Origin: Candidatus Acididesulfobacter guangdongensis
GTDB lineage: Bacteria; SZUA-79; Acidulodesulfobacterales; Acidulodesulfobacteraceae
NCBI GenBank assembly: GCA_004195045.1
Contig: SGBC01000003.1
Location: 186,001 to 250,000, forward strand
Reading direction: 5' to 3'
DNA: 64,000 nt
Shown: piece by piece, positions 42,129-61,402 of the stretch
Layout of the letters: each line of letters opens with the position of its first letter
Numbering within the stretch: position 1 is the first letter of the stretch
The notes under the pieces: generated by a model
Database searches by the model: none
The model's input: only the letters and a program-made list of their open reading frames with translations
What the model was told of the DNA's origin: nothing
Program-made: the position numbers and the translations under genes

Positions 42129-42215
42129 CCTAAACTTAGAAACTGAAAGGAAAATATATATGATGTAGGCGGATTTTTACATATCAACTTTTAATTAATT
42201 CATGGAGGTAGATTT

Positions 42216-42760: not shown

Positions 42761-42938
42761 ATAGTAAAAAATAAACCGCCGTCCATGCTTAAAAAAATAA
42801 TTTTAATACATGGACGGGGTGATAAGCTGAAAACTGAAAACCTAAATTGCAACACATTATAATTGATTTAATTTTGCGTTGGTAATACAATAAATTAAAT
42901 CAAAAATACAATAAAATAAATAAAGGTTTAAAATCAAA

Positions 42939-43172
42939 ATGTGCCTTGCGATTCCATCTAAAGTTATAGAAATAAAAAACGATAATACCGTCATTGTAGA
43001 TACTATGGGTTCTAAAAGGCTCGTTTCTACGATGCTTTTAGAAGAGCAGGTCAAGATGGGCGATTATCTGCTTATTCACGTCGGTTACGCAATGCAAAAA
43101 ATAGATGAAGAAGAAGCGCTGGAAAGCCTTAACCTATTCAGGGAAATCGAAAGCAAAATTGCAGGACGGTAA
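42939..43172 (+). CDS. hypC: Hydrogenase maturation chaperone HypC
   Basis: Carries the iron with its CO and CN ligands from HypD to the large subunit of [NiFe]-hydrogenase. It is 77 residues long, the usual size. MCLAIPSKVIEIKNDNTVIV: the N-terminal Met-Cys is the hallmark, Cys2 binding the iron. LLEEQVKMGDYLLIHVGYAM and QKIDEEEALESL complete the OB-like fold and C-terminal helix. In most genomes hypD follows directly; here a 14.4-kb integrated element lies between hypC and hypD (58329). hypA and hypB are not in the window. Confidence 0.93.
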   Translation: MCLAIPSKVIEIKNDNTVIVDTMGSKRLVSTMLLEEQVKMGDYLLIHVGYAMQKIDEEEALESLNLFREIESKIAGR

Positions 43173-43421
43173 AGAAATATAAATTATTTAAAATAATTTA
43201 GTTTTTACAAAATAAGCACGATTATTACCTATAATTTGTCATCTATTCCTCTGAACTTGCACCAGTAAATATTGCCTCTTTTGAATATATTCATAAGTAA
43301 AAAAGTGTATCTGTTTTTGTATCTAAAATTTACATAATTTTACATAAATTTATCACTTTTTAACATTTAAGGCAAGACATTTTTTAATGGTGAAATAGGC
43401 TTGAAAGGCTTAAAATCGCTT

Positions 43422-43480
43422 GTTTTAACTGGTGGAGCTGATCGGAGTCGAACCGACGACATCTTGCATGCCATGCAAGC
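43422..43480 (-). repeat. Left attachment site with a partial tRNA-Ala (attL)
   Basis: These 59 bp are identical to 57750-57808. They contain the tRNA's anticodon-stem 3' half, T arm, acceptor 3' strand and CCA (43430-43480), and 8 bp downstream of it. Identity breaks at 43481, where the intact tRNA would continue into its 5' half. It is the scar made by site-specific recombination. Confidence 0.9.
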
Positions 43481-43536
43481 TATTACAACTAATAACTTAT
43501 TAATATTATTAAGTTATTTTCTTTATAAAAAATGCT

Positions 43537-43557
43537 ATGGGACAAATTTGAGACAAA
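43537..43557. repeat. Candidate integrase arm-binding site, left
   Basis: ATGGGACAAATTTG followed by AGACAAA here is matched by ATGGGACAAATTTGGGACAA at 57644-57664, in the same orientation, one near each end of the island. Repeats of this kind at both ends commonly bind the N-terminal domain of a tyrosine integrase. Confidence 0.45.
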
Positions 43558-43561
43558 AGGG

Positions 43562-43870
43562 CTATTTTGGGCAGTTATTTTCTTTGCCGGTAGAATGAAA
43601 AATAATATCAAATAACCTTTCGTTTGTTTTATTCATATAGTTCACTTTTTCGGAAAGGGCAGTAATCTTTATATCTATTTTTTCGTCGTTGTCGTCTATT
43701 TTGTTTTTAAGCGAATCTATCTTGATGTCCATAGCTTCTATTCTTGTATTAGTAGAATTTATCTTTTCTTCAAGAATATCCTGTTTGTTTATGATTTTAC
43801 TTAAATTCGGGACGATTAGTTCCTGAATGACTTTTCTTATAGCGTTTTCTTTAATACTCTCAGCGGACAT
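43562..43870 (-). CDS. Small coiled-coil protein
   Basis: A protein of 102 residues predicted to be almost entirely coiled coil: ILEEKINSTNTRIEAMDIKI and DSLKNKIDDNDEKIDIKITA have heptad patterning. There is no signal peptide or membrane segment. A GGAG ribosome site lies 7 bases upstream of the ATG, after three direct copies of AGTAATTAAA (43881-43910). It is the first gene inside the left end of the island and points toward attL. Short coiled-coil proteins in such places are often accessory to DNA processing, but I cannot name a function. Confidence 0.6.
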   Translation of the reverse strand: MSAESIKENAIRKVIQELIVPNLSKIINKQDILEEKINSTNTRIEAMDIKIDSLKNKIDDNDEKIDIKITALSEKVNYMNKTNERLFDIIFHSTGKENNCPK

Positions 43871-43926
43871 TTAAAGCTCCAGTAATTAAAAGTAATTAAA
43901 AGTAATTAAATTAATAGACAATGTTA

Positions 43927-44202
43927 TTATACCAAAGTTTTTAAAAAAGAAAAATAAAATGAATGAAATAAAATAATTATATTTATTTTCTCTTCTATTC
44001 TCTTTTGGTCGTCTTGGCTTAATTTGGCGATTTTATTAGCCTGCGTCTTAGGTATTTGTTTAGCCTTAATGGCTTCTTTGGCTTCAGAGCAGATATTGTT
44101 ATCTCGGTCAAGCCCTTCGTAAACTACGCTTTTTTTCTTACCTGTTTTAATAACTGTGTCGTCAACAAAAGACGGCAACGTCATTCCAGAATCTGGAACC
44201 AC
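43927..44202 (-). pseudogene. Fragment of a ParB-like partition protein
   Basis: Ninety-one codons from a GTG at 44202. SFVDDTVIKTGKKKSVVYEG and LDRDNNICSEAKEAIKAKQI, then QANKIAKLSQDDQKRIEEKI, resemble the part of ParB/RepB-type proteins after the nuclease-like domain (tgxxxSxVxxxL and the A-K-L-s-x-x-x-Q motif). The N-terminal ParB domain is absent, and the last 15 residues are hydrophobic and unrelated. It is therefore a truncated remnant. The GTG start lies inside a 41-bp palindrome. Confidence 0.5.
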
Positions 44203-44211
44203 GTTGCCGTC
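44171..44211. repeat. Near-perfect 41-bp palindrome
   Basis: GACGGCAACGT at 44171-44181 mirrors ACGTTGCCGTC at 44201-44211, and TTCCAGA at 44184-44190 mirrors TCTGGAA at 44192-44198, all centred on 44191, with only two mismatched pairs. It overlaps the start of the ParB-like fragment. It could be a protein-binding site for partition or regulation, or a strong hairpin. Confidence 0.65.
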
Positions 44212-44362
44212 TAAAGTTATCTAAAGGGATTAGTTTTAAGATTAAAACCCTGCTTTAAATTCCTAAAAAAGTATCGGTTACTTGTTATAATATTATTTTG
44301 ACGAGTAAAAATATTTTAACAAAATAATTGCAATATTGCAAAAAATTTGTTAAAATAACCGT

Positions 44363-44710
44363 ATGAAATGTAAAATTGAAAATTGTGATAAAGAAATATT
44401 AGCAAGCGGATATTGCTCTATGCACTATGCCAGAAATCGCCGGACAGGTGATCCTAATATAATACAAAAACGCGGAAGGAAGAAAAATAAATTTAGAGAA
44501 TTTACATTGCAATCTTTTTCAGATAAGTCTAAAAGAACGGTTGATAAATTATTAAGATTTTATAGAATTGCTTCTGAAATCGGTATTTCTGAATCGGAAA
44601 AAGAAAAATTAACGAAGCAAGCGGTTCGTTCAAACGGAACGTTTAGCTTTGAAAAACTTAATCAAATAGCAGACTTATTATTAATTAAATCTTGGATTAA
44701 GAAAGATTAA
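44363..44710 (+). CDS. Phage/plasmid-type Cys-rich zinc-binding protein
   Basis: A protein of 115 residues. CKIENCDKEILASGYCSMHY and ARNRRTGDP (residues 3-31) form the C-x4-C, C-x2-H motif common in small phage and plasmid proteins, where it resembles the metal knuckle of some homing-type HNH proteins. The rest is basic, then helical (KSKRTVDKLLRFYRIASEIG). It has no recognisable catalytic motif, so a DNA-binding role is the fair guess. Downstream, GC-rich and repeat-containing non-coding DNA follows. Confidence 0.6.
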   Translation: MKCKIENCDKEILASGYCSMHYARNRRTGDPNIIQKRGRKKNKFREFTLQSFSDKSKRTVDKLLRFYRIASEIGISESEKEKLTKQAVRSNGTFSFEKLNQIADLLLIKSWIKKD

Positions 44711-45198
44711 TGGTTTTCTATCTACCCATTCCCGATTTCTTGGGGGTATAAGTGGGTAGCTTTGTCGCCAAAGCGAACCCCCCTTAATAATGCACTTAAA
44801 AGTTTTTGCGCCGTAGTCCCGCTCTTTTTTCGCCGGAGTTATTAAGCCGTAGGCGTGATAACGGAGTAAGAAAAAACAGGGACGAAGCAAGCAAAAACCA
44901 CCCTAAAATGACACTCTGCATGACACTATAAGCAAATTTTGCCGGATACGGCAAGTGTAGGTTCTGTTTGTATTTGACGGGTTTTTTAGTCAAATACAAA
45001 CAGAACCGTATAAGATAAAATAAAAAATATTTTAAAAAAAGTTCTTGACATTTCTGGGGGGGGGGTGCTTTAATTTACGTAGGTTAAATTAAAATATTAT
45101 AAACATAATTTATTTATTATTTAATTTATTAATCAAAAATCAGACTGGCATACGAGCATACCATAGCTGACTTTAAATAAAAATAGCGGTTAATATTA
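44711..45198. other. Non-coding region with a large inverted repeat
   Basis: These 488 bp hold no gene. They contain the perfect 19-bp inverted repeat at 44960-45007, a run of ten or more G near 45055-45066, and a short stem CCGGATACGG-like stretch near 44942. The concentration of structure suggests a transfer or replication site. Confidence 0.5.
44960..45007. repeat. Perfect 19-bp inverted repeat
   Basis: GGTTCTGTTTGTATTTGAC (44960-44978) and its exact complement (44989-45007) enclose GGGTTTTTTA. It is the most perfect long stem in the island. Candidate roles are an oriT-type recognition site, an origin hairpin, or a bidirectional terminator. Confidence 0.65.
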
Positions 45199-45726
45199 AT
45201 GGCGAATAAATCAAAATTAAAAATATTTATATTTATCTTTATCCTTTTTTCCGCAAATACAGCATACGCCTTTGGCATTCTGAATCCGCCATATAACCAG
45301 TCAGATTCAAACTTCAATAAACTTGCTATGCGGGTTTACAACTCAAACAGTCCTTATATTTACACACATGGAGCTTATAACTATGATGCTATACCTATTA
45401 CGACTACTATGTCCGGCTGCAAGCTAATAAGCATAATAAGGCGAACGCAGGGCTTTCCTAAACCGGCATACTGGGCGATTGAAAATTATAAGATATGTGG
45501 CGGCAATATTGCGGAAGTTAAAAATACCAATATGGCAGGTTGGAATAATTTGCCGAGGGGAATAAAGCCGGTTATAAAGAATACTATAGTTCAAGCCCGT
45601 CAATTCGGCAAAGCAAGTGCTAATTATTACGGATATAGGATTATCGCAAATACTGGAGCTTATATAGGAACTGTATTCGTGTATGTGCTAAATGGAATAA
45701 AGTTAGAAGCCGCAATGAAGTTTTAG
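45199..45726 (+). CDS. Secreted protein of unknown function
   Basis: A protein of 175 residues with a Sec signal peptide: KSKLKIFIFIFILFSANTAY ends in AYA, with cleavage likely near residue 24. The mature part is rich in Asn, Tyr and Gly, has two Cys (SGCKLISII and YKICGGN) that could form a disulfide, and shows no domain I recognise. It stands upstream of a secreted TPR-type protein and another small secreted protein, forming a group of three exported island proteins. Confidence 0.6.
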   Translation: MANKSKLKIFIFIFILFSANTAYAFGILNPPYNQSDSNFNKLAMRVYNSNSPYIYTHGAYNYDAIPITTTMSGCKLISIIRRTQGFPKPAYWAIENYKICGGNIAEVKNTNMAGWNNLPRGIKPVIKNTIVQARQFGKASANYYGYRIIANTGAYIGTVFVYVLNGIKLEAAMKF

Positions 45727-45779
45727 GATAATTAAATTAAAAATTATTAAAAATAGTAATAATATAAAAAGGAGTGATT

Positions 45780-46703
45780 ATGATTAAAAAAATTTTACTA
45801 TTTGCCGTATTCCTTATGTTTATTTTTGTTGTTAAGTCTTACGCTTCACGTAATTCTATTACTCAATGTTTTAATCATCTTAGAGGACAGTCTTATAGAA
45901 CTGCAAAAAGATATGGGCTCAGAGCTGTAAAAAAACATTCTCATAGTTTTCATGCTCATTTATGTTTAGGGGAGGCTTATTATAAACTTGGAATTTATCC
46001 ACCCGCAATTAACTCTTTTAAAAAAGCTATTTCTTTTACAAACAAAAAAAATAGATTAATGATTGTTTATAACTGGATAGGCAGGATATATTCTAATATT
46101 GGAGATAAAAAAAATGCACTCTTATATTATAATAGGTCGCTTACGCTTGAAAGAAAACTCAAAAATGTAAACAATGAAAGTGCTAATTTAAATAATAAAA
46201 TAGCTGTTACATATCGTAAAAAAGATAATTATCAAAAAGCGCTTTATTATGATGAAAAATCTTTAGCCTTAGCAAGAACCAAAAAAGACAAAGCTAATTC
46301 ATATGGCAATATAGGTACGGACTATTTTGATATGAATAATTATATTGAAACTATAAAATTTATTAAAAAGGCGTTAATTTTGGACGAAAATATAGACAAT
46401 CATTATGAAACTGGTGAATATTTTTTAAAGCTTGGAAGTGCATATACATACATAAACAACTATTCTAAAGCCAAAAATTATATAATTAAAGGTATAAATA
46501 TAGAAAAAAGGATTGGCAATAAATTGATGATAGGTGCTGGACACCTTTTTTTAGGATTCCGTTATCTAAAGAAAGGGAACAACTTAAATAATGCGATGAT
46601 ATCTTTTGAAAAAGCTTACAAGTTTTTTAAAGAAGCGGGTGCCAATAAGGACGCGTCTTCTTGCCTTAATATAGTAAACAAAATAAAAAAAAAATTATAT
46701 TAA
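45780..46703 (+). CDS. Exported TPR-repeat protein
   Basis: A protein of 307 residues. The start MIKKILLFAVFLMFIFVVKS and YAS form a signal peptide. The rest consists of TPR helices: AHLCLGEAYYKLGIYPPAIN, IVYNWIGRIYSNIGDKKNAL, ANSYGNIGTDYFDMNNYIET and GAGHLFLGFRYLKKGNNLNN. TPR arrays bind other proteins, here in the periplasm or outside the cell. The ATG at 45780 follows GGAG by 5 bases; the GTG at 45774 is too close to that site. Confidence 0.75.
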   Translation: MIKKILLFAVFLMFIFVVKSYASRNSITQCFNHLRGQSYRTAKRYGLRAVKKHSHSFHAHLCLGEAYYKLGIYPPAINSFKKAISFTNKKNRLMIVYNWIGRIYSNIGDKKNALLYYNRSLTLERKLKNVNNESANLNNKIAVTYRKKDNYQKALYYDEKSLALARTKKDKANSYGNIGTDYFDMNNYIETIKFIKKALILDENIDNHYETGEYFLKLGSAYTYINNYSKAKNYIIKGINIEKRIGNKLMIGAGHLFLGFRYLKKGNNLNNAMISFEKAYKFFKEAGANKDASSCLNIVNKIKKKLY

Positions 46704-46782
46704 ACAAAAAAATTATATTTTGATTTGAAGGCGGTTAGCGAATATGATTTAGCAAATAAAGGCAATAATTAATTAGTTTTAT

Positions 46783-46823
46783 TTTACCCCCCGCTCTCGC
46801 TACTATGTGCGAGTGGGGGGTAA
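46783..46823. terminator. Strong hairpin after the TPR gene
   Basis: TTACCCCCCGCTCTCGC pairs with GCGAGTGGGGGGTAA across TACTATGT, with a small bulge. With A/T-rich flanks on both sides it could end transcription in either direction. It lies 80 bp after the TPR-gene stop. Confidence 0.6.
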
Positions 46824-46945
46824 ATGATATAAAGATATAAAGTCACATTTATTTCCTCCATATTGCGACGTTAAATTATTTTTTAGATGACGCATGCATT
46901 AACAGGCTACTACTTTGTTTAATCTAATTTATTAAAAGAGAAAAA

Positions 46946-47341
46946 ATGAAAAAAATCTTATTAATTATTTTTGCTTTATCTATTATTTTAAGTCCCGCTT
47001 TAGGTTATGCAAAAAAAACAATGAACGGACCGATAGAAATTTATGGCCGCACTACCTTAAGAGATGTTCATGTAATTTCAAATTCGTACGGATTCATAGT
47101 GCACGGCAAATTGATTTTAATCGATTCTAAGATTTCTGCTCCGGTGGGAGCAAAGGTTTACGGCTTCGGGTCTGTTTATTTGCAAAACGATTATTTTAAT
47201 TGCGAACTTGGAGTTAAATATGCGCAAGCTCCCATAGGCGATGTTATGATTAACAACACATTTACCGGCAGGATTTCCAATGCATCGGATTTTTCTTCGA
47301 GAATGCCTGGGACGGGCTCGCCGTTTCCTTTTATGCCTTAA
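46946..47341 (+). CDS. Small secreted beta-type protein
   Basis: A protein of 131 residues with a clear signal peptide (KKILLIIFALSIILSPALGY, then AK). The mature part (IEIYGRTTLRDVHVISNSYG, HGKLILIDSKISAPVGAKVY, GSVYLQNDYFNCELG) has the alternating pattern of a right-handed beta-helix of polymer-like or pectate-lyase-like proteins, but it is too short for a full enzyme. No catalytic residues are recognised. It may be a surface protein of the island. A hairpin terminator follows. Confidence 0.6.
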   Translation: MKKILLIIFALSIILSPALGYAKKTMNGPIEIYGRTTLRDVHVISNSYGFIVHGKLILIDSKISAPVGAKVYGFGSVYLQNDYFNCELGVKYAQAPIGDVMINNTFTGRISNASDFSSRMPGTGSPFPFMP

Positions 47342-47395
47342 CGAATAGAAATGCAAAAATATTGTCAAAAATAAAGATATCTTATTTATTTATTC

Positions 47396-47434
47396 TCCTA
47401 CTCCCGCATGATTTAGCGGGGTAGGATTTTTATT
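47396..47434 (+). terminator. Rho-independent terminator
   Basis: TCCTACTCCCGC (47396-47407) pairs with GCGGGGTAGGA (47416-47426), one bulged base, and is followed by TTTTTATTTT. It ends the transcript of the small secreted protein gene. Confidence 0.75.
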
Positions 47435-48422
47435 TTAGAGTTAAGCAAACGTTAAAAATGAAAAATATTTTAATTTATTTTAATTTTCCTCTTGACAACT
47501 TTTAAATATCTGGTATCCTATAAATATATCTATGATTTTTTCTCAATTTTTATCGCTCTCTGAGCTGAAAAAAAAATTGACTACCGGCAATGCACATAAT
47601 TTTTTGGGATTATGTTTATTAAATTTTATTTAATAATTAGCTAACAGCCGGAAAATTTAACCAAAAAAGCACAATAAGCCTTTGGATCCAAACCCAAAGA
47701 AACTTTGACTTTTTCTCTCGGAACATTTAAAGTCTATTGAAATTTAAGTTAAATAATTAAGCCAGTTTCATTTCAGGGATTATTTAACTTCACTAATTAT
47801 GCGATAGCTTTATTCTTTATTTTTTATCGCATACTACTATAATATTTTATTATTTATTTATTAATTGCACTGCAAAAGCAGAAACGAGCAAGATAAAAAA
47901 ATTAATAAAATATATCTTTTAAAAAAATCCTTTAAATTAAATTTAAACTTATTTTTATTGCCTGTTTCAGGTGTAGGAATACTTTTATTTTTCTTGGATT
48001 ATCGCTTTTTGCGGTTTGCTTCATGTCGCCGCCTACTCGCAAATCTCACAACTTTTATATTGCCACACCTCCCGCAAGCTACGCTTGCGCTTGAGAAAGA
48101 TTTGCATCCTAACGCCCGTGCTACATCCGGGAAAATCGAGATTCAAAACATATCATATATAGTAAAACTGCATTACCCAGTTAATGCGGTCATTCCTTAG
48201 TTTCACAATCCCATTTTTTTTCTGTTAAAGCTCTCATGGGCTTTTTTTAATTTGTGCTGCTTCACCTATGCGCCGTTTATGCGCTCATTTCTCAGAGTTG
48301 AGAAAAAATAAACAAAAGGACAACGACCTTTTAAAAAAATGTTCCGTCTTAACTTTTTTCCGAAGAGTATCTCGGAAAATGACGCTATAGTCTTGTCTAA
48401 AACTTAAATTTGGAGGTTTAAA
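47435..48422. other. Long non-coding region upstream of the recombinase gene
   Basis: Nearly 1 kb without a convincing gene. A possible 111-codon frame from TTG 47865 has no ribosome site and no family resemblance. GC-richer patches near 48010-48140 (CGCAAGCTACGCTTGCG is a palindrome) and a hairpin AAAGC/GCTTT with T run near 48222-48247 are visible. It may hold regulatory RNA or origin functions. A GGAGG ribosome site at 48411 belongs to the recombinase. Confidence 0.45.
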
Positions 48423-49343
48423 ATGAGAGGAACGGTATCTTGGCAAGTTACGGAAATTTTCAAGGAAATAAAATATATAGGAGAGTCTAAACATTCTGCT
48501 AAAGAATCTGCCCGCCTTTCAGGCGCGCACGGTTCTCACGAAATCGCCGAAAAAACAGGAATATACGGAATAACGACTATGGATAATTATCGTGATTCCG
48601 TAGCCGGATTTGCTAATTGGGCAAAGGAAAATTTTGGATTAAAAGACCTTACAAAAACAGAAAGCAAGCACGTTATAAGCTATCTTGAAAGCAGGATAAA
48701 AGCAGATGTGGCGCATAAAACATTTCAGCTCGACAAAGCCTCATTAAATAAATTTGAAACAGCCCTGAATGCTTATTCTAAGTCGCATAATTTAAACCGG
48801 ACATATAATTTTGCCTTGAACGAAACCTTTAAATCAGAGCATAAATCTTTACAGCATGCAGACATTCGGGCTTACGACAAAGGAACCGTAGATAAACTTT
48901 TAAATAATATTCAGGACAAAGCAACAAGCCTTGCCGTCCGGTGCGCTTTGTCGGCAGGTTTAAGAAAATCTGAAATTCTTAAATTATCGGAAAGTAATTT
49001 AAAAGAAAATAATAAGATTGAAATTTTGGGCGGAAAAGGAGGCAAAGACAGGGTTGTATCTATGATACACGATAAGTCTTTAATTTCAGATATTAAAGCA
49101 TTTTTGAAAGAAAATAGTTTATCGAAATTCGGGGACGCCGTTTCCGGCTCAAAAATAAATTATGAAATCAGGGCGGTTTTAGGCGATAGCGGGTCAATTC
49201 ACGCTCTAAGACATAATTATGCGATTGATTGCATAAATACATTTGAAAAAGCCGGCTATTCGCGCGTTGAAGCCATTCACGCAACGAGCCTTGAACTCGG
49301 ACATAACAGAAACGAAATAATCGAAGGGGTGTATTCAAAATGA
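48423..49343 (+). CDS. Tyrosine recombinase (XerC/phage-integrase family)
   Basis: A protein of 306 residues. The C-terminal catalytic domain has ALSAGLRKSEILKLSESNLK (first Arg), HALRHNYAIDC (His-x-x-Arg), LELGHNRNEIIEGVYSK (His and the nucleophilic Tyr near residue 304). The N-terminal part contains a SAM-like domain (NYRDSVAGFANWAKENFGL). It differs from the tRNA-proximal integrase and sits in an operon with plasmid maintenance genes, so it may resolve plasmid multimers or catalyse another recombination. The next gene overlaps its stop by four bases. Confidence 0.8.
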   Translation: MRGTVSWQVTEIFKEIKYIGESKHSAKESARLSGAHGSHEIAEKTGIYGITTMDNYRDSVAGFANWAKENFGLKDLTKTESKHVISYLESRIKADVAHKTFQLDKASLNKFETALNAYSKSHNLNRTYNFALNETFKSEHKSLQHADIRAYDKGTVDKLLNNIQDKATSLAVRCALSAGLRKSEILKLSESNLKENNKIEILGGKGGKDRVVSMIHDKSLISDIKAFLKENSLSKFGDAVSGSKINYEIRAVLGDSGSIHALRHNYAIDCINTFEKAGYSRVEAIHATSLELGHNRNEIIEGVYSK

Positions 49344-49780
49344 TAAACACGGAAAAATTGGAGAAAATCTTAAAAAAGAAAAAAGATAAAATCCCGGCGC
49401 TTTTGGAAGTCCTGCGCCTTACCGGCAAGCTCTGCATTATCGATGACGACGTCTTAGATAATGCCATCAATACGGCTATTGACAAGGTTTTAAATTTATT
49501 AAAATTGCAATCACAAAGCAAAAGGACTACCGGATATATCCTAACTGCCGGCGATTATAAAAGTTTGGGTATTTTTGAAAATCATCTTAAAAAACTCCGC
49601 CGAAAATCTAAAGAATCGCCGCGGCTGGAAAGTTTAATAAAGCTCATGCCTAAGCTTTATCTAATAAAACAGGAACGGAATTTGAATTTTGCAGAATTAA
49701 AAAAGTATGCAGAAAAAAAATACAAAATAAATTGCTCCCGAACGTATTTCTTAAAAATATACAAAAAAATTAATAATTAA
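49340..49780 (+). CDS. Uncharacterised basic protein coupled to the recombinase
   Basis: A protein of 146 residues, very rich in Lys, with no domain I recognise. The start overlaps the recombinase stop (ATGA), so translation is coupled. The second half (FAELKKYAEKKYKINCSRTY) resembles the KfrA- or TraK-like pattern of a helix-turn-helix near the C-terminus and could bind DNA, which is a guess. The tight coupling implies it works with the recombinase, for instance as an accessory or directionality factor. Confidence 0.6.
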   Translation: MINTEKLEKILKKKKDKIPALLEVLRLTGKLCIIDDDVLDNAINTAIDKVLNLLKLQSQSKRTTGYILTAGDYKSLGIFENHLKKLRRKSKESPRLESLIKLMPKLYLIKQERNLNFAELKKYAEKKYKINCSRTYFLKIYKKINN

Positions 49781-49830
49781 TTTTTCAGTATCTCAAAAAA
49801 AACCGTATATATAAAATATACGGAGAAAAA

Positions 49831-50109
49831 ATGACAGAACTTAAATATCTAACTTTAAAAGAAACGGCGGAAATTATATCAGTCAGCCCGCGAACGCTCG
49901 CAAATTTGGCAACATCAGGTCAGATTACAGCCTATCGCCTTCCGTCCTCTTGCGGAAAAAAATCACGCTATCGGTTTAAATTATCGGACATTGAATCGTT
50001 TATGGACAGAAACAAACTATTGGCCGTAAATGTCATTACAAAAAATGTGTTTAAAAATAATAAAGCCCGAATAGATCTTGTAAAAGTTAAAAAGGCTTTA
50101 TCTATATAA
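49831..50109 (+). CDS. Excisionase-like helix-turn-helix protein
   Basis: A protein of 92 residues. LTLKETAEIISVSPRTLANL and the wing YRFKLSDIESFMDRNKL are the MerR-like winged-helix of the excisionase (HTH_17) family, which in integrating elements bends DNA to direct excision. Similar proteins also regulate plasmid replication genes, and this gene stands directly upstream of the Rep_3 initiator. A TACGGAG ribosome site lies upstream. The role in excision is likely but not proved. Confidence 0.75.
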   Translation: MTELKYLTLKETAEIISVSPRTLANLATSGQITAYRLPSSCGKKSRYRFKLSDIESFMDRNKLLAVNVITKNVFKNNKARIDLVKVKKALSI

Positions 50110-50127
50110 ATTAAAGGTTGCTAAAAA

Positions 50128-51105
50128 ATGAAAATAATAAATCTGATAGGAGAAGAAAAAAGAAACGAATTCGACGGATTAGATTACATCAGAGAAGATA
50201 ACAAAAACTTGCTTGTTAAAAAAGACAACAAATTAGTTTTTACCAAATGCAATTTAAGCTTAGTTCAAATGAAAATTATTCTCGTATGTCTTGGATTTAT
50301 TTTTAAAGACGACATATCATTTAAACCTTTACGACTGCCAGCTAAAAAATTTCTTAATATTATAGGCGTCGGCAAAGAAAATTCAAATTATTTAAACAAA
50401 GAATTTAAAGCAATTCTTTCCAAACCTATAGAGACCATAGAAGAAGACTGCTGGACGATTTATAGCTGGTTTACGAAAGCAAGCTGTAAAAAGGGCATTG
50501 TCGAAATAAGTCTAAATCCAGAACTTGACCCCTTATTATTAAATTTACGTAAAAATTTCACAGCATATCCTGTAAATCACATAATTCAAATGAACAGCAA
50601 ATACAATATTAGATTATATGAAATTTTTACGTCGGTATTGGGCGGAAATTTAAATTTCCGCTGGCGCGTCGGAATAGATGAATTTAAAAAACTTTTAAGT
50701 ATCGAAAATAAAAAATTTAAAGAAATTAACCAGATGATTTTAAATAAAATAAATATGACCGGAACCGATTTAGAAATAGAAGAAATTGGATTAATAAAAC
50801 AATCCAAAAAGGTTGTAAAACTTGTATTCAATATAGTAAGAAAACAATCCAAAATTAGAAGCGATGTTAAAAAAATATTATTTGACGCAAAAAATAAAAG
50901 ATTCGCTATCTCTGATAACCTAATTAAGCGCTACCAAGAAGAATACAAAGAAATCAACATCTACGAAGAAATCAAGAAAATGGAAAATTGGGCCGTAAGA
51001 AAAAGTGACTATAAAAATTTAACGCAAAAGGATTGGACGGAATTTATCGGAGAATGGCTGAAAAGAAAAGCATACGGGGGATATTTTGAAGACTTTTATT
51101 CTTAA
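50128..51105 (+). CDS. rep: Plasmid replication initiator (Rep_3 family)
   Basis: A protein of 325 residues. The Rep_3/RepA winged-helix fold is shown by LSLVQMKIILVCLGFIF, KPLRLPAKKFLNIIGV and HIIQMNSKYNIRLYEIFTSV near residues 150-169, the last being a hallmark, followed by RWRVGIDEFKKLLSIENK. Such proteins bind iterons and open the origin. Four 22-bp repeats start 3 bp after the stop, which is the usual place for Rep_3 iterons. It shows that the island descends from, or still is, an autonomous plasmid. Confidence 0.9.
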   Translation: MKIINLIGEEKRNEFDGLDYIREDNKNLLVKKDNKLVFTKCNLSLVQMKIILVCLGFIFKDDISFKPLRLPAKKFLNIIGVGKENSNYLNKEFKAILSKPIETIEEDCWTIYSWFTKASCKKGIVEISLNPELDPLLLNLRKNFTAYPVNHIIQMNSKYNIRLYEIFTSVLGGNLNFRWRVGIDEFKKLLSIENKKFKEINQMILNKINMTGTDLEIEEIGLIKQSKKVVKLVFNIVRKQSKIRSDVKKILFDAKNKRFAISDNLIKRYQEEYKEINIYEEIKKMENWAVRKSDYKNLTQKDWTEFIGEWLKRKAYGGYFEDFYS

Positions 51106-51108
51106 TTA

Positions 51109-51205
51109 CATTATAAAACTTGCCTATAGACATTATAAAACTTGCCTATAGACATTAATTACATTATAAAACTTGCCTAAAGGCATTATAAAACTTGCTT
51201 TCGGC
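51109..51205. repeat. oriV: Iterons, probable replication origin
   Basis: CATTATAAAACTTGCCTA or a close variant starts at 51109, 51131, 51162 and 51184 (spacing 22, 31 and 22 bp). The fourth copy ends CTTTCGG. The copies are direct, contiguous, 22 bp in period and adjacent to the rep gene. This is the structure of a Rep_3-controlled origin. Confidence 0.82.
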
Positions 51206-51352
51206 GCCAGATTCAGTAGTAAATTCAACACCTTGCCAATGCCTATAAAGTATTAAATCAAAAGTAGAATAAAGTATAAGGATTAAATAGAAGGTACGGC
51301 AAAAATAGTATTGTCACACCCCCCAAATACAAAGGCGGAGAAAAAAAATCTT

Positions 51353-52225
51353 ATGAAAATGGAAAAATCAACTCAACAACTAAATTTGTATCCGCCGGAA
51401 ACGCGGTTTATTATTAAAATGAAAAACTTCTCGACCGGCGATGTTAAAATTCTTAATGATATTAACTTATCCGAATATGAAAAATCTTTAAAATATCTTA
51501 AATATTTAAACGCAAACGGCTATAACGTCTTTCTCTCCGCCTGTAAGGCGGGGGGCGTGTATATATTACTTGATGATATTAAAAAGCCGGCTATAGATAA
51601 ATTATTCACGGACGGTTTTGAACCGTTTTATTTTTTACAGACAAGTCCTGATAATTTTCAGGCTATTATAAAGTTATCGGATAGCCCGCTTGATAAGGAT
51701 ATACAAACTTTTGCAAGCAAACAGCTTGCTGAAACATACAACGCCGATCCAAACTCTGCGGATATTGGTCATTTTTTTAGATTGGCGGGATTTACAAACC
51801 GAAAGCAGAAATACAGCAAGAACGGACTATTCCCGTTCGTAAAACTCTATGCTGGAACCGGCAATACATGCACTAAAGGCGAATCCTACGTCGAAAGAAT
51901 TTTAACCGGCATAGATAACGGTTTTATCGAATTGTTGCCTAAAAAGCATATAACCACGCCCCCCGCTAAGCTGGGAGAAAGAAAAACGCTTGTTTCGGGG
52001 TGCGGCGCATATATTGAAAAGGTCTATAAAAGTGGAAATAAAGACGGAGATTTATCGGCTTTGGATTTTAAGGCGGCACGATATGCTTTGAGAAAAGGTT
52101 TTAAACCAGACGATGTAATTAATGCTATTAAATTATTCAGTCCTAAACTTGAAAGCAGAAAAAGTGGACATATTGACGATTATATTAGTAGAACCGTAAA
52201 AAATGCTTTGTATAATGCGATTTAA
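51353..52225 (+). CDS. RepB-type plasmid primase
   Basis: A protein of about 290 residues resembling the primase domain of RSF1010 RepB' and related plasmid/phage primases. LNANGYNVFLSACKAGGVYI, LLDDIKKPAIDKL and FYFLQTSPDNFQAIIKLSDS are the family's core (catalytic Asp-Asp and the TSPxNxQ motif). ADIGHFFRLAGFTNRKQKYS is the substrate-binding part. The ATG at 51353 with GGCGGAG upstream is preferred over a TTG at 51311. It would prime replication at the nearby iteron origin. The C-terminus has an added helical domain (ARYALRKGFKPDDVINAIKL). Confidence 0.75.
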   Translation: MKMEKSTQQLNLYPPETRFIIKMKNFSTGDVKILNDINLSEYEKSLKYLKYLNANGYNVFLSACKAGGVYILLDDIKKPAIDKLFTDGFEPFYFLQTSPDNFQAIIKLSDSPLDKDIQTFASKQLAETYNADPNSADIGHFFRLAGFTNRKQKYSKNGLFPFVKLYAGTGNTCTKGESYVERILTGIDNGFIELLPKKHITTPPAKLGERKTLVSGCGAYIEKVYKSGNKDGDLSALDFKAARYALRKGFKPDDVINAIKLFSPKLESRKSGHIDDYISRTVKNALYNAI

Positions 52226-52270
52226 GGCTCGGAAAAAGACAAACAGGTATAAAAACCATTAACCTTTTTA

Positions 52271-52332
52271 TTTCTTGCCCCAAACATCGTCAACGGCTTT
52301 TTTCAGCGTCTCCGGCACTAAATAGCTATACC
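52271..52332 (-). pseudogene. Copy of the integrase gene tail
   Basis: These 62 bp match the 3' end of the integrase gene at 56582-56643 with about five substitutions and encode the same last residues (VPETLKKAVDDVWGKK) on the minus strand. The copies are in direct order and flank the methyltransferase-endonuclease-ATPase cassette. Confidence 0.75.
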
Positions 52333-52334
52333 CA

Positions 52335-52403
52335 TAAACGACATATTTTTCTGCTGAAAACGACATGCTTTTTCAATACGCGCAGAAAAATATGTCGTTT
52401 ATA
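52335..52403. repeat. Perfect 21-bp inverted repeat
   Basis: ATAAACGACATATTTTTCTGC (21 bp at 52335-52355, last base beyond the copy shown as C) mirrors 52383-52403 perfectly across a 27-base loop. It starts 2 bp after the integrase-tail copy, at the left edge of the defence cassette. It could be a terminator, a recombination site, or a control site of the restriction-modification operon. Confidence 0.65.
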
Positions 52404-52481
52404 TGTCATCTTAGCCGTTCTATTCCCTGATGTATCCTCTATAAAACAGATAACATTCTTTTGGAAATAATATATAAATCC

Positions 52482-52509
52482 TTGCATAATTGCCGACAAT
52501 TGGTATAAT
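52482..52509 (+). promoter_or_regulatory. Sigma-70-like promoter of the restriction-modification operon
   Basis: TTGCAT (52482-52487), a 16-base spacer, and a perfect TATAAT (52504-52509). It lies 70 bp upstream of the likely methyltransferase start. Confidence 0.55.
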
Positions 52510-52577
52510 ATTAAAAATATATCAGGATTCTTCATCTTATGTTTTTAATATTAAATATTTTTAAATTTTATAAAAAT

Positions 52578-53336
52578 ATGGAATTCCCGACGGATTTTAT
52601 AAATAAGATTATATGCGGAGATACTATCGATGTAATGAAACAAATCCCCGATAAGTCCATTGATTTAGTTATTACATCACCGCCTTATAATTTAAAGAAC
52701 TCTACCGGCAACGGTATGAAAAATAGCAAAACCGGAAAATGGGCAAATGCTGCCCTGCAAAAAGGATATTCGCACCATGACGACTGTATGCCTCACGATA
52801 AATACGTAAAATGGCAAAGAAATTGTCTAACGCAGATGATGAGAATATTATCCGAAGACGGCGCGATTTTTTATAATCATAAATGGCGGGTGCAAGCCGG
52901 ACTTTTACAGGATAGACAAGATATAGTTAGCGGCTTTCCAGTCCGGCAAATTATTATCTGGAAAAGAAAAGGGGGATTTAATTTTAACCCCGGTTATTTC
53001 TTGCCGACTTATGAAGTTATTTATTTAATAGCTAAGCCTAAATTCAAACTATCTAAAAAAGCAAATGCTTATGGCGATGTCTGGGAATTCACTCAAGAAA
53101 TGAAAAACTATCACCCTGCCGCTTTTCCTATTAGTCTAATTGACAGGATAGTTTCATCGACTAACGCAAAAACTATCTTGGATCCTTTTATGGGTTCGGG
53201 AACGACCGCAATTTCGGCAATAAATTTTGATAGGAACTATATAGGGATTGATAATTCCCCCGAATACTGCAATATGGCCGAAGAACGAATTAAATCATAT
53301 CTGCGACAAGGAAAATTATTATTTAATTATGATTGA
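52578..53336 (+). CDS. DNA methyltransferase (beta class, N4-cytosine or N6-adenine)
   Basis: Modifies a base to protect host DNA from the neighbouring endonuclease. Catalytic motif IV is LVITSPPYNLKNS near residue 35, and the SAM-binding motif I is TILDPFMGSGTTAISAINFD near 195; IV before I defines the beta class. SPPY is common in N4-cytosine enzymes. GDVWEFTQEMKNYHPAAFPI is a family motif before I. An upstream in-frame ATG (52539) would add a hydrophobic 13-residue leader, so the ATG at 52578 (MEFPTDFINKIICGD) is preferred. The endonuclease gene overlaps the end by 8 bases. Confidence 0.85.
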   Translation: MEFPTDFINKIICGDTIDVMKQIPDKSIDLVITSPPYNLKNSTGNGMKNSKTGKWANAALQKGYSHHDDCMPHDKYVKWQRNCLTQMMRILSEDGAIFYNHKWRVQAGLLQDRQDIVSGFPVRQIIIWKRKGGFNFNPGYFLPTYEVIYLIAKPKFKLSKKANAYGDVWEFTQEMKNYHPAAFPISLIDRIVSSTNAKTILDPFMGSGTTAISAINFDRNYIGIDNSPEYCNMAEERIKSYLRQGKLLFNYD

Positions 53337-54123
53337 ACCTATAATTTATACAAAGCCGAAATTAATCGAAAAATTAAAAGAAATTTCTGCATCGGGATGG
53401 ATCCAGAATGCCAGAAAAGGTAATCACGGCGGAATCGGCAATACGTTAGAAGACTTGCTTGGTATTAAAGAAAACAATTTGCCTATACCGAATGCGGCGG
53501 AATGGGAATTAAAATCTCAACGCATTAACTCATCATCCTTAACCACTTTGTTTCATATTGAACCTTCACCGCGTGCAATTCGTTTTGTTCCTCAAATTTT
53601 ATTGCCAAAATACGGTTGGGCGCATGGAGAATCTGGCAAAAAATATCCTGAGGGCGAAATGAGTTTTCGGCAGACTATCCATGGGCTATCTCGAAGCGAT
53701 CGCGGTTTTATGGTTGTTATTGACAGGAAGGAAAGAAAAGTTTTAATTTCTTTTGATTCAAAAGCCGTTGATGCAAGACATTCCGAATGGTTAAAATCGG
53801 TAGAGGATAGGATTGGATTAGAAGAATTAGAACCGCAACCATATTGGGGTTTTGATGATTTAGAACATAAAGCAGGAACTAAACTACTAAATTGTTTTTA
53901 TGTGCAAGCGGAAGTTAAAACTGATAAGAAAAAAGAGTTTTATTGGTATTCAAAGGTTATGATGTTAGAAAAATTCAATTTTGAAGGATTTTTAAACCAA
54001 ATCGAAAATGCGAACGTTTTAGTAGATTTCGATGCCCGTACGGGACATAATCACGGAACTAAATTCAGGATGAGACAAGACAAATTGCCTTTGTTATATA
54101 AAAAAACAACGGTAATTATTTAA
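53329..54123 (+). CDS. MvaI/BcnI-family restriction endonuclease
   Basis: Type II endonuclease of 264 residues. IGNTLEDLLGIKENNLPIPN followed by AAEWELKSQR is the family core: the active site of MvaI and BcnI holds a Glu-x-Lys after the Asn-Leu-Glu-Asp segment. SSLTTLFHIEPSPR and LVDFDARTGHNHGTKFRMRQ are also conserved. Known members act as monomers on CCWGG or CCSGG, so a five-base C-rich target is expected, but the specificity cannot be read. It overlaps the methyltransferase gene by 8 bases, so both are made together. Confidence 0.82.
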   Translation: MIEPIIYTKPKLIEKLKEISASGWIQNARKGNHGGIGNTLEDLLGIKENNLPIPNAAEWELKSQRINSSSLTTLFHIEPSPRAIRFVPQILLPKYGWAHGESGKKYPEGEMSFRQTIHGLSRSDRGFMVVIDRKERKVLISFDSKAVDARHSEWLKSVEDRIGLEELEPQPYWGFDDLEHKAGTKLLNCFYVQAEVKTDKKKEFYWYSKVMMLEKFNFEGFLNQIENANVLVDFDARTGHNHGTKFRMRQDKLPLLYKKTTVII

Positions 54124-54207
54124 GTTAGGATATTACCGTTTTGAATTGTTTTTAATTAAAAATTAAACTAGTGTTCGATTAAACGCAATGCGCAGTAAAG
54201 TAATGTT

Positions 54208-56382
54208 ATGGAAAAAATACAGCTAAAACTAAAAAATTGCTATGGAATTAAGAAGTTAGAAAAAGAATTTGATTTTTCGGGTGACAACACATCGCATCAC
54301 AATACATACGCAATTTATGCTCCAAACGGGGTCATGAAAACTTCATTTGCAAAAACGTTCCAAGACTTGAGTTTCGGATCAAATTCAGAGGATATAGTAT
54401 TTCCTGAAAGAGAAACAATTCGTGAAATCAAGAAAGAAGATGGAAGCGATTTGGTTAAAGAGGAAATTTTTGTTATAGAAGCATATAATGAGGCGTTTAC
54501 ATCAGAAAAAATGTCCACTCTTTTAGTAAATAAGGAATTGAAAAATAAATATGACAAAATTTATTTAGGAATTGACGAAGAAAAAGAAAGGTTGCTGAGA
54601 GAATTAAAAAATTTATCAGGACTTAGGAACAATATAGAGAAAGAAATTTCTAAAACTTTTACAAGTGAAGACAATAGACTGTTTGATTCTCTCGGAAGAG
54701 TAGAAAAAGAAGTTATGGACTATTCAGAGCCTATATATTCTGAGATTAGTTATAAAGAAATTTTTAATGAAAAGGTTTTAAATTTTTTAAACACTAAGGA
54801 TTTTAAAGAAAAAATTAAACGGTATATTGAAAAATATGATGAATTAATTATTGATTCAAAATATTTTAAAAAAGGTGTTTTTAATCATAATAATGCGTCA
54901 GCTATCGCAAAAAGTCTAATGGATAATGGATTTTTTGAAGCAAAGCATTCAGTTTCTTTAAATACAAAAGAAAGTAAGAACGAAATTCACACCAAAGAAG
55001 AACTTGAAAAAGTCATAGATGAAGAAAAAACCGCCATTTTAACTAACCCTGATTTAGTGAAAGTTTTTGATGAGTTAGACGGCAAACTAAAAGCAAATAA
55101 AGAGCTACGCGACTTTAGAGATTATTTATTAAATAACCTTAAAATTCTGCCAGAGTTAAAAAATCTTGATAACTTCAGGCAAAAATTGTGGGTATCATAT
55201 TTCAAAAGCCAAAAAAGCCTATATGAGAATTTCTTGAAAGTGTATAACGATGGAAAAAGTGGGTTAGATAAGATAATAGAACAAGCTAAAATAGAGGAAA
55301 CGCAATGGAGAAGTGTAATAGATATCTTTAATAAAAGGTTTTTTGTCCCATTTATGCTTACTATGAGAAATCAGGATGATGTTATTTTAAAAAGAGATGT
55401 CCCCAGTATTGGCTTCGTATTTAAAGACTCAATCAGTGAAACTTCCATAGAGAAATCAGAGCTACTCCAAGTATTAAGTAACGGAGAGAAGCGAGCTTTA
55501 TATATTTTAAATATAATTTTTGAAGTTAGAGCAAGAAAGGATGGAAATCTGGAGACACTATTTATTGTTGATGATATAGCAGATTCTTTCGATTATAAAA
55601 ACAAATATGCAATCATTGAATATTTGAAAGACATTTCAGAAGAAACAAATTTTAAGCAGATAATTCTGACCCATAATTTTGACTTTTTCAGGACTGTTCA
55701 AAGCAGGTTTGTTCCATATGATAATTGTTTAATGGTTGAAAAGACGGCTGAAGAAATAAAAATTACAAAAGCAGAGTATATAAAAAATCCATTTAAACAC
55801 TGGATGGAGCATTTAGATGATGATAAAAAACTTATAGCGTCAATTCCGTTTGTAAGAAATCTTATTGAATACACTAAAGGCGATGCTGATCCTGATTATT
55901 TGAAATTAACATCACTGCTACACGCTAAATCAGATTCTGACTCCGTTCTTAAAAGTGATCTGAAAAATATTTACCGTAATGTCTTTCCTAATCTAAAGTC
56001 AACTAAGTTAATTTTGACAAATGAGAGCGAAAATATTACAGAACTTATTTTTAATATATCAGATGCCTGTTTAATAGCGCCTGAAAGTATAAATTTAGAA
56101 AATAAAGTTGTTCTCGCTATTGCCATCAGGCTAAGAGCAGAAAAGTTTATGTTAGACAAGATAAATGGCAAAAGCGAAGCAGCAGAAAATCAAACGAGGA
56201 AGCTTTTTGAGAGATTTAAGGTTAAATTTCGCACTGAACAAGAGAATATCAAAATACTAGAACGAGTGATCCTTATGACCCCAGAAAATATTCATTTTAA
56301 TTCATTTATGTATGAACCAATTTTAGATATGTCTGATGAACATTTGAAAACATTATATTGCGATATAAAAAAATTGAAATAA
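54208..56382 (+). CDS. SMC-like AAA ATPase, probable defence protein
   Basis: A protein of 724 residues with an ABC/SMC-type ATPase split by a coiled coil. Walker A region AIYAPNGVMKTSFAKTFQDL lies near residues 35-54. ABC signature VLSNGEKRALYILNIIFEVR is near 421-440, Walker B TLFIVDDIADSFD near 450-462, and the switch His in IILTHNFDFFRTVQSRF near 488-504. The middle (about 115-380) is largely helical. No HNH, TOPRIM or other effector motif is seen, so it is not a typical OLD, RloC or PARIS protein. Its position in a restriction-modification cassette suggests anti-phage work; the mechanism is unknown. Confidence 0.75.
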   Translation: MEKIQLKLKNCYGIKKLEKEFDFSGDNTSHHNTYAIYAPNGVMKTSFAKTFQDLSFGSNSEDIVFPERETIREIKKEDGSDLVKEEIFVIEAYNEAFTSEKMSTLLVNKELKNKYDKIYLGIDEEKERLLRELKNLSGLRNNIEKEISKTFTSEDNRLFDSLGRVEKEVMDYSEPIYSEISYKEIFNEKVLNFLNTKDFKEKIKRYIEKYDELIIDSKYFKKGVFNHNNASAIAKSLMDNGFFEAKHSVSLNTKESKNEIHTKEELEKVIDEEKTAILTNPDLVKVFDELDGKLKANKELRDFRDYLLNNLKILPELKNLDNFRQKLWVSYFKSQKSLYENFLKVYNDGKSGLDKIIEQAKIEETQWRSVIDIFNKRFFVPFMLTMRNQDDVILKRDVPSIGFVFKDSISETSIEKSELLQVLSNGEKRALYILNIIFEVRARKDGNLETLFIVDDIADSFDYKNKYAIIEYLKDISEETNFKQIILTHNFDFFRTVQSRFVPYDNCLMVEKTAEEIKITKAEYIKNPFKHWMEHLDDDKKLIASIPFVRNLIEYTKGDADPDYLKLTSLLHAKSDSDSVLKSDLKNIYRNVFPNLKSTKLILTNESENITELIFNISDACLIAPESINLENKVVLAIAIRLRAEKFMLDKINGKSEAAENQTRKLFERFKVKFRTEQENIKILERVILMTPENIHFNSFMYEPILDMSDEHLKTLYCDIKKLK

Positions 56383-56550
56383 AAAATTGTTAGACCACAC
56401 TATCCCTTCAAAGGAATAAAAATTGATAAAGACAGAAAAATTTTAGCTAAGACCGAACCGAAAGCACATTCTTATAAAAATAGAAAGGTAAATGCCCTTT
56501 TGGTGGAAGTCATTGCTATAATAACGAAAGAGTATTTTTTAAAAAACTAA
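56383..56550 (+). other. In-frame open extension after the ATPase stop
   Basis: Immediately after the ATPase TAA the same frame stays open for 55 codons (IVRPHYPFKGIKIDKDRKIL, then AKTEPKAHSYKNRKVNALLV) to a TAA at 56548. It has no start codon of its own near the beginning. It may be the tail of a former neighbouring gene or of a once longer ATPase. Confidence 0.35.
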
Positions 56551-56579
56551 TTAAATGCAAGGCAATATAAAAACACCAA

Positions 56580-57626
56580 TTATTTCTTCCCCCAAACGTC
56601 GTCAACGGCTTTTTTCAAGGTCTCCGGCACTAAATGGCTATACCTTTTCGTCATCTGGGTTGTCCGGTGTCCTAACAGCTCCCCCGTAATATAAAGGCTC
56701 GTCCCGTTCTTTACCATTTTACTTGCGAATACGTGCCTTAAATCGTGGATATGCATATCTTTAATTCCGGCGTTTTTGCAGGCGGTTATAAAAGACTTTC
56801 TAAAATTGCCGATTTTAACTCCATTTTTGTTAAAGACATACGAACAGTCGTCTTTCTTTTCAATGCCGGTTAAAAGCTCTTTTAAGGGCTTTGATATAGG
56901 AATATATCTGTCGTATTTAGTTTTAGTAGCTTTAATTGCGATAATGTTATTTTGAAGATCAACATTGTCCCATTTTAAGTTTAATGCTTCGCCTTTACGA
57001 CAACCGGTGTAAATTAAAAAGGTTATTAAATCTCTTGTAAGTTTATTAGTAGCGCCGGCGATGAGCTTGTCGATATCAGAGTCGGATAAAGTTTTAAGGC
57101 GGGATAATTCGTTAAGTTTTTTAATGCCGGTTGCGGGGTTCTTTTCAAGATAACCTTTTTTAATGCAGAAAGCAAAGAAATTGTATAATGTAGCAATTTC
57201 AATATTGATAAGCCGGTATGATATTTCCGAGTCCCTTTTGTCTTTGTTTTTTGGTAATGACATTGTTTCAATTTTACGCTTTAGCTGATAGGTTTCTATG
57301 AAATCCGTCGTTATAATTTTTATAGACTTGTCTGTAAATACCGGCAAAAAGTGCTTTGCAACGTGTTGCCTTAATTTTACCGTTTCTATGCTTACCGCTT
57401 GCGATTTTAAGTATTGTTCCCATAAATCCTGAAAAGTATAATTGTTGGCGTAATTAACGACTGTCGGCAAGTCATGCTTTTGCCTGAGTATATCGCTCTT
57501 TATCGTGCTGGCTATCTTTTCGGCAAGGTTTTTATCGGTCGTTTTGGTCGTTCCTTTGTATCGGACGCCGTCAATCATCATATCGTAATAGTAATATTTA
57601 CCGCGCAGCCTGATATTCTCTGACAT
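56580..57626 (-). CDS. int: Tyrosine integrase of the island
   Basis: Site-specific recombinase of 348 residues that integrates the island into tRNA-Ala, which lies 130 bp from its start codon. Catalytic residues: Arg in FLIYTGCRKGEALNLKW near 203-219, His-x-x-Arg in MHIHDLRHVFASKMV, His in GELLGHRTTQM, and Tyr in TKRYSHLVPETL. The N-terminal arm-binding start (MSENIRLRGKYYYYDMMIDG) and the core-binding domain (YTFQDLWEQYLKSQAV) are present. All elements of an active enzyme are intact. A partial copy of its 3' end lies at 52271-52332. Confidence 0.93.
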   Translation of the reverse strand: MSENIRLRGKYYYYDMMIDGVRYKGTTKTTDKNLAEKIASTIKSDILRQKHDLPTVVNYANNYTFQDLWEQYLKSQAVSIETVKLRQHVAKHFLPVFTDKSIKIITTDFIETYQLKRKIETMSLPKNKDKRDSEISYRLINIEIATLYNFFAFCIKKGYLEKNPATGIKKLNELSRLKTLSDSDIDKLIAGATNKLTRDLITFLIYTGCRKGEALNLKWDNVDLQNNIIAIKATKTKYDRYIPISKPLKELLTGIEKKDDCSYVFNKNGVKIGNFRKSFITACKNAGIKDMHIHDLRHVFASKMVKNGTSLYITGELLGHRTTQMTKRYSHLVPETLKKAVDDVWGKK

Positions 57627-57643
57627 TTTTACTCTCCTTAAAA

Positions 57644-57664
57644 ATGGGACAAATTTGGGACAAT
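57644..57664. repeat. Candidate integrase arm-binding site, right
   Basis: ATGGGACAAATTTGGGACAA, with an extra GGGACAA sub-repeat, matches 43537-43557. It overlaps the integrase promoter region, so binding could also regulate int. Confidence 0.45.
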
Positions 57665-57757
57665 ATTTTACTAAATTTGACCTTATTTTACCATTTTCAA
57701 GGATATTGTCAAGAGAAAGTATATTGCTTGAAAGTGCTTATTTACTGCGGTTTTAAC

Positions 57758-57833
57758 TGGTGGAGCTGATCGGAGTCGAACCGACGACATCTTGCATGCC
57801 ATGCAAGCACTCTGCCAACTGAGTTACAGCCCC
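57758..57833 (-). tRNA. tRNA-Ala (anticodon GGC)
   Basis: A 76-nt cloverleaf on the minus strand with encoded CCA. The acceptor stem GGGGCTG/CAGCTCC contains the G3-U70 pair that identifies alanine tRNAs. The anticodon stem CTTGC/GCAAG encloses ATGGCAT, giving anticodon GGC, and the T loop is TTCGACT. Its 3' 51 bases are duplicated at 43430-43480, because the island recombined here; the gene remains complete on the integrase side. Confidence 0.97.
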
Positions 57834-58328
57834 ATAAACGAAGTGCAGATAAAATATATTGGCAACACTAACTTAACTTACATTATAAATACCGCTAAGC
57901 AAAAATCAATTATATTATATCCGCAATCTTAAAACAAAAATGAGATATTATACTTTATTTACTTTATTTACTTTATTTACTTTATTTAATTTAATAATAT
58001 ATCTATAATAATAATGATAAATAATAATGATAGATGATATAATTATTAAAATATATATAATATAATAAATAAAATACTATATAAATAACAGCAAGTATAT
58101 TTAATAAAATTTAGTAAATATATTCTATAATTTATAGTAAATAGCATACAAATGTCAAGTGTTTTTTTATTTAAGATAAAATAGCATAGAATACAATGAG
58201 ATAAAATTATACAGATAGAATGGAATTACATAAAATTACATAAAAATAAAATAAAATTAAATTCAGTAAAATAATTAATCTAAATTAAGACGTTACTGAA
58301 TACTATTGTTAAATTTTCACTTTTTACT
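57834..58328. other. AT-rich intergenic region before hypD
   Basis: These 495 bp contain no gene. Five copies of a 9-bp unit, ACTTTATTT, run from about 57953 to 57990, followed by ATAAT-rich sequence. No clear promoter or ribosome site for hypD is visible. Confidence 0.5.
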
Positions 58329-59891: not shown

Positions 59892-59908
59892 ATGATTCAA
59901 TAATAATA

Positions 59909-61397: not shown

Positions 61398-61402
61398 ATT
61401 AA

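Follow-up and report, generated by a model that had tools for sequence, protein, structure and literature searches.

A 14.3-kb mobile element with a plasmid-type replication module occupies a tRNA-Ala gene upstream of the hyp operon in an acid-mine bacterium

In Candidatus Acididesulfobacter guangdongensis, hypC lies on one side of a large island and hypDEF on the other, raising the question of what this island is and whether it has split the hyp operon, as an initial annotation proposed. We addressed both points in the 64,000-nucleotide window around it (G000:C3:186001-250000, from a 2.2-Mb genome in five contigs), the features of which are collected in Table 1. Our analysis confirms the element together with its borders and its tRNA target. 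The direct repeat of 59 bp said to contain the 3′ part of tRNA-Ala(GGC) is indeed identical at both positions, its copies starting 14328 bp apart; both borders carry the tRNA 3′ end in the same orientation and the intact tRNA lies on the int side. A 25-nt 3′ segment of this tRNA occurs at only two sites in the 2.2-Mb genome, both of them the att repeats (none for a reversed control). Upon removal of positions 43481-57808 in silico, aragorn called a complete tRNA-Ala(GGC), and found no tRNA in the joined circle ends of the island. Among relatives, the same tRNA-Ala is found both without an element (G001) and with related integrase genes upstream of hypC (G006 and G002). The island is a 14.3-kb mobile element in the tRNA-Ala gene of this acid-mine bacterium, with an intact plasmid-type replication module.

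Table 1. Positions of the element, its neighbours and the hyp genes in the window
Feature	Position	Strand	Remark
Foreign block p41412-acetate transporter-hypC	41483..43229	+	
hypC	42939..43172	+	sole copy in genome, xenologous
Truncated integrase start MNIFKRGNIYWCKFRGIDDKL then stop, GATACA arm repeats	43230..43421	-	fused to attL
attL, distal attachment repeat	43422..43480	-	copy of tRNA-Ala 3′ part + 8 nt
Arm-type tandem repeat, second copy, inside distal end	43537..43556	-	same orientation, 19/20 nt
Cargo region	43562..47341	.	coiled-coil ORF (-), HNH-like ORF, secreted 175-aa, TPR and 131-aa proteins
xer, second tyrosine recombinase, Xer-like	48423..49343	+	conserved backbone gene
g49340, conserved xer partner	49340..49780	+	146 aa, no known domain
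Excisionase-like HTH_17 protein	49831..50109	+	
rep, Rep_3-type initiator	50128..51105	+	Rep3_N 2e-27
Iterons ACATTATAAAACTTGCCTATAG	51107..51198	.	22-bp period, directly after rep
RepB-type primase	51311..52225	+	Pfam
3′-end remnant of a second int gene	52268..52332	-	65 bp
Hairpin inserted in int remnant	52334..52402	.	69 bp, perfect arms; absent from G006 copy (L110)
Type II DNA methyltransferase	52539..53336	+	Pfam, defence search
MvaI/BcnI-family restriction endonuclease	53329..54123	+	Pfam, defence search
ATPase, candidate defence family PDC-S46	54208..56382	+	PADLOC
int, three-domain tyrosine integrase	56580..57626	-	catalytic residues invariant in 21 relatives
Tandem repeat TTGTCCCAAATTTGTCCCA before int	57644..57663	-	predicted integrase arm/autoregulatory sites
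Family signature CGCAGTAAATAAG	57737..57749	-	8 nt past tRNA 3′ end
attR, tRNA-side attachment repeat	57750..57808	-	within intact tRNA gene
Complete tRNA-Ala(GGC), integration target	57758..57833	-	also rebuilt on joining flanks
Deletion junction, ~775 bp	58175..58176	.	native 81-aa ORF and hypC removed
hypD, hypE, hypF, native	58329..64000	+	starts 58329, 59909, 61403; hypF runs off window

Pfam searches supported the gene content first claimed for the island, namely integrase, Rep3_N, RepB_primase, N6/N4 methylase, MvaI/BcnI nuclease and excisionase-like HTH. An initiator domain and iterons, the features of a Rep_3 iteron replicon, are both present and, together with the repeat and the rebuilt tRNA, bear out the description of a plasmid-like replicon placed site-specifically in tRNA-Ala. 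We consider it very probable that the island is a site-specific integrative element with a Rep_3/iteron plasmid module, located upstream of the hyp operon and beside an older, decayed element.

The catalytic residues of the integrase (R210, K235, H294, R297, H320 and Y329) are invariant across 21 relatives, and the best fold match to its structure model is lambda integrase, the catalytic half of the model being of low confidence. Residues 1-50 were modelled as the beta-beta-beta-alpha fold (pLDDT about 75-89) that forms the arm-binding domain of tyrosine integrases such as lambda Int and Tn916 Int (PMC8138268). Int thus combines the catalytic R-K-H-R-H-Y set with a modelled N-terminal beta-beta-beta-alpha domain, as found in tyrosine integrases of the arm-binding type. 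Autoregulation is known for tRNA-associated integrases, and an overlap of the tandem-repeat sites with the integrase promoter would fit this behaviour (PMC2951348).

The gene order xer-g49340-HTH-[rep]-primase-cargo-int-tRNA recurs, with gaps, in G028 (at tRNA-Lys), G016 (at tRNA-Ala), G004 and G013. Relatives of xer (64-71% identity) have g49340 adjoining, and g49340 is itself 49-79% identical in related elements, where it is paired with the Xer-like gene. Primase relatives were found in 11 of 30 family genomes, our own included. The rep gene has a single close relative in these 30 genomes (48%, in G028) and the plasmid module is therefore not typical of the element family. The G028 element has the same Rep_3 layout as the window, with 22-bp iterons of a different sequence after rep; the corresponding slot is taken by DUF3987 proteins in two genomes (G004, G016) and by a DnaB-like helicase in G018. 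On a reading of these few elements, the replication slot would appear to be exchangeable. Identities to plasmid records were low (at most about 32% for rep, and about 27-32% for int among the best matches listed). None of the contigs tested for circularity had overlapping ends, and they gave no sign of an episome.

The methyltransferase and the matching nuclease beside it form a type II restriction-modification pair of the MvaI/BcnI kind, and the 724-aa ATPase next to them is the PADLOC candidate PDC-S46 (E 7e-280). The pair is 92-95% identical to one at tRNA-Leu in G006, where the same int 3′ remnant abuts the same methyltransferase. The remnant is 96.5% like the window int, compared to only 73% for the int resident at that tRNA-Leu. 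Because the int remnant borders the methyltransferase in both genomes, the cassette appears to have moved together with a piece of int, and the sequences suggest that the restriction-modification/ATPase cargo arrived by recombination between elements. The hairpin inserted in the remnant was considered as a high-copy repeat, and was not found to be one. Further into the cargo, the secreted 175-aa protein (45199) recurs in related elements and contigs. One such contig of the same genome (G000:C5; L125, 11,986 bp) encodes DNA methylases and an HTH regulator and has two loci similar to the secreted protein. It is not an excised copy of the island: int, rep and xer are missing from it, and the two have nothing in common beyond the gene for the secreted protein and a partial match to the methyltransferase.

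Could the island instead be a decayed, immobile fusion of at least two elements, its replication genes mere fossils? The int remnant and inserted hairpin within it (52268-52402), the remains of an older element abutting it and the broken state of many relatives would be consistent with such an origin, but nine genes (int, xer, g49340, the HTH gene and those for rep, primase, methyltransferase, nuclease and ATPase) keep full-length open frames, the 59-bp repeat has the same sequence in both copies and neither arm-type repeat has been lost, which makes this explanation unlikely, if still a serious one. We give considerably less credit to a phage origin, as a prophage or as a satellite relying on Rep_3 to replicate during phage growth. 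Integration in a tRNA gene, an integrase and defence cargo are all common in satellites, but the island proteins included no recognised capsid, packaging or phage regulatory product, rep, int and xer have no relatives in IMG/VR, and the best phage records reach about 28% over the integrase. Structural, packaging and capsid-remodelling functions were likewise not recognised in the island, a lack that minimal satellites may share.

To return to the integrative element and its place in the hyp locus, hypC is indeed on one side of it and hypDEF on the other, and joining the flanks in silico confirmed that its removal would leave hypC about 0.8 kb before hypD, with the tRNA between them. The further claims that the island splits the operon and that excision would restore gene order were contradicted by comparison with relatives. 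In four genomes of the same genus (G001, G002, G005 and G006), a tRNA-Ala on the minus strand is followed by an unbroken hypC-hypD-hypE, with hypC directly before hypD, and this holds with or without an island at the tRNA. Island-free relatives with hypC close to hypD, which the initial annotation had itself named as grounds for abandoning its proposal, do exist. In G001, hypC is preceded by an 81-aa ORF and ends 190 bp before hypD. The window can be aligned with G001 on either side of the tRNA. The match is close between the tRNA and 58175 and resumes at 58176, continuing into hypD; a clean, separate deletion of about 775 bp has removed the native hypC, with the 81-aa ORF, at this junction.

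The hypC of the window is foreign. Its DNA is 83-87% identical to that of genus g6 vs. 71-73% to that of its own genus, and in trees it groups with g6; hypD is 80-97% identical to its own genus and groups there (100/100 support). The idea that it is the native gene relocated to the left of the island is ruled out by this grouping with another genus. The block of which it forms part is colinear with chromosomes of g6, ending 25 bp short of the g6 hypD, and includes an acetate transporter with no close relative elsewhere in the genus. On its left the block meets 104 bp (41380-41483) also present next to an integrase fragment on contig C4, probably an insertion-sequence end. Carriage by an older element, insertion-sequence capture and plain recombination are candidate routes by which the foreign hypC may have arrived.

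The right end of the foreign block adjoins a segment (43230-43421) with GATACA-N6-GATACA arm repeats and a 21-codon integrase start, which mark it by sequence as the tRNA-proximal remnant of an earlier element in this tRNA-Ala. The window hypC lies on the far side of this truncated integrase relative to attL. The G016 element, at the same tRNA, also has a truncated integrase start with arm repeats just outside its distal att site (L113:251-495), and both are debris of tandem accretion. The present island thus did not split the ancestral operon, since hypC is foreign, the native hypC was deleted and the debris of an older element lies between. Insertion into a contiguous hypC-tRNA-hypDEF array that excision would restore, although suggested by the position of hypC and hypDEF on opposite sides and by their approach to within about 0.8 kb on joining the flanks, is highly improbable given the tRNA upstream of hypC-hypD-hypE in four congeners, the origin of the window hypC in another genus, the separate loss of the native gene and the truncated integrase between hypC and attL, which together with the tRNA would part hypC from hypD even without the island.

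On these comparisons, the element lies upstream of the hyp operon without splitting it, and its excision would not restore the ancestral operon. The locus likely acquired, in turn, an older element in tRNA-Ala and the foreign block; decay and the disappearance of the native hypC would have followed, with the present element inserting last, although we infer the order of these steps. It illustrates how a single tRNA can come to collect a foreign maturation gene, the debris of an old element and a new one, and how a comparative test corrected a tempting story of a split operon. Low-complexity tandem repeats with 42-bp and 9/36-bp units were also noted before hypE (59645-59923) and inside hypF (62686-62802); similar repeats occur in the hyp regions of congeners.

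We propose the following scheme for the element, its boundaries, gene content and empty-site geometry being read directly from the DNA. Recombination by the integrase would join attP to the tRNA-Ala(GGC) 3′ end; the element brings an identical 3′ sequence with it and so leaves the tRNA gene whole, and the 59-bp duplicate marks its far end. The N-terminal domain of int is predicted to recognise the TTGTCCCA tandem repeats inside both ends and the core-binding domain the tRNA core, with the excisionase-like HTH protein presumably steering excision. Once excised, the circle could be replicated by Rep_3, the iterons and the primase. The restriction-modification pair and PDC-S46 ATPase are taken as defence or addiction cargo. 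At this locus, the element integrated beside an earlier one, now decayed, in this tRNA (tandem accretion), and a separate deletion removed the native hypC from between the tRNA and hypD.

Is this element one of a kind? Integrases more than 55% identical to int are present in most genomes of the bacterial family, often in many copies, and their genes adjoin a tRNA 3′ end, usually at a distance of 120-190 nt. We gathered 45 int-tRNA junctions (that of G002 entered twice), covering 19 tRNA genes counted by anticodon. An exact copy of the 13-mer signature CGCAGTAWWTAAG follows the tRNA at a distance of 7-9 nt in 23/45 elements. The genome studied here has five exact matches (vs. none for a reversed control), four of them located 8 nt beyond a tRNA (Val-TAC, Arg-CCT, Arg-TCT and Ala-GGC). 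In most elements, int is immediately preceded by a tandem pair of 10-12 nt period, its sequence differing between elements.

The three integrase domains behave differently with respect to these sites. Residues 1-55 are 82% identical between integrases with the same tandem pair and 42% identical otherwise, and remain at only 43% where the tRNA is the same and the pairs differ. For the core-binding domain, identity is 59% between elements that share the tRNA but not the pair, vs. 49%, and for the catalytic domain it is 82% regardless of pair or tRNA. Shuffling the motif labels never reproduced the N-domain pairing (0/500), a count that is not a formal probability because the motif classes were set by eye and the rows are related. 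At fourfold sites, all three domains are more alike between integrases that share an arm class, which could reflect either recombinational domain swapping or fast divergence of the core-binding domain. On balance, though by no great measure, we favour the view that these are small tRNA-integrating elements of one bacterial family (Ca. Acididesulfobacter and relatives), in which a single integrase architecture serves about 19 tRNA genes with target and regulation modular, the N-terminal domain being paired with an element-specific arm repeat, the core-binding domain following the tRNA, the catalytic domain staying the same, and the replication slot that separates HTH from primase changing its gene (Rep_3 with iterons, DUF3987 or DnaB-like).

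An integrating element with a plasmid initiator is not, as first supposed, unprecedented, since Rep_3 genes are listed for the integrative elements SGI1 and BcenGI2 (PMC5704250). The island resembles these IMEs in combining site-specific integration with a theta-type Rep_3 initiator, in tandem accretion and, as regards some of them, in its type II restriction-modification cargo. It differs in having a backbone of a RepB-type primase and a Xer-like gene, and no relaxase, a mark of an IME, was recognised among the island proteins tested. Tycheposons of Prochlorococcus (PMC10872708) are likewise tRNA-anchored, with a tyrosine recombinase, variable cargo and several tRNA genes per element type. 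Compared by description, our elements belong to another bacterial order, use about 19 tRNA genes, and have an arm-binding integrase and a plasmid Rep_3 or DUF3987/DnaB-like replication slot. In lambda Int and Tn916 Int (PMC8138268), the three-domain architecture is the same as in the window int; the subfamily of the latter (>55% identity) was found, within the sets searched, only in one bacterial family, and it pairs N-domain and arm repeat strongly across many tRNA targets.

AICEs such as pSAM2 are tRNA-integrated elements of actinomycetes that keep plasmid-type replication and encode their own FtsK-like transfer protein. The island shares both tRNA integration and plasmid-type replication with them. 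Its initiator is different, and no FtsK-like transfer protein or conjugation gene, as would be expected of an AICE or ICE, was recognised in it.

The element family is large and apparently undescribed, and the description of the order Acidulodesulfobacterales (PMC6776010) makes no mention of integrases, mobile elements or plasmids. Rep genes in integrative elements, accretion and multi-tRNA families are known; the member family and its clear domain-to-site pairing are new. A series of integrases in which the DNA-reading domains vary and the catalytic domain hardly does makes a change of tRNA target directly testable, and arm-repeat pairing and core pairing can be separated in swap assays. Finally, many MAG contigs with a family integrase (L093-L102) start within about 80 bp of the tRNA, which could reflect branching of the assembly graph where populations contain a mixture of occupied and empty sites.
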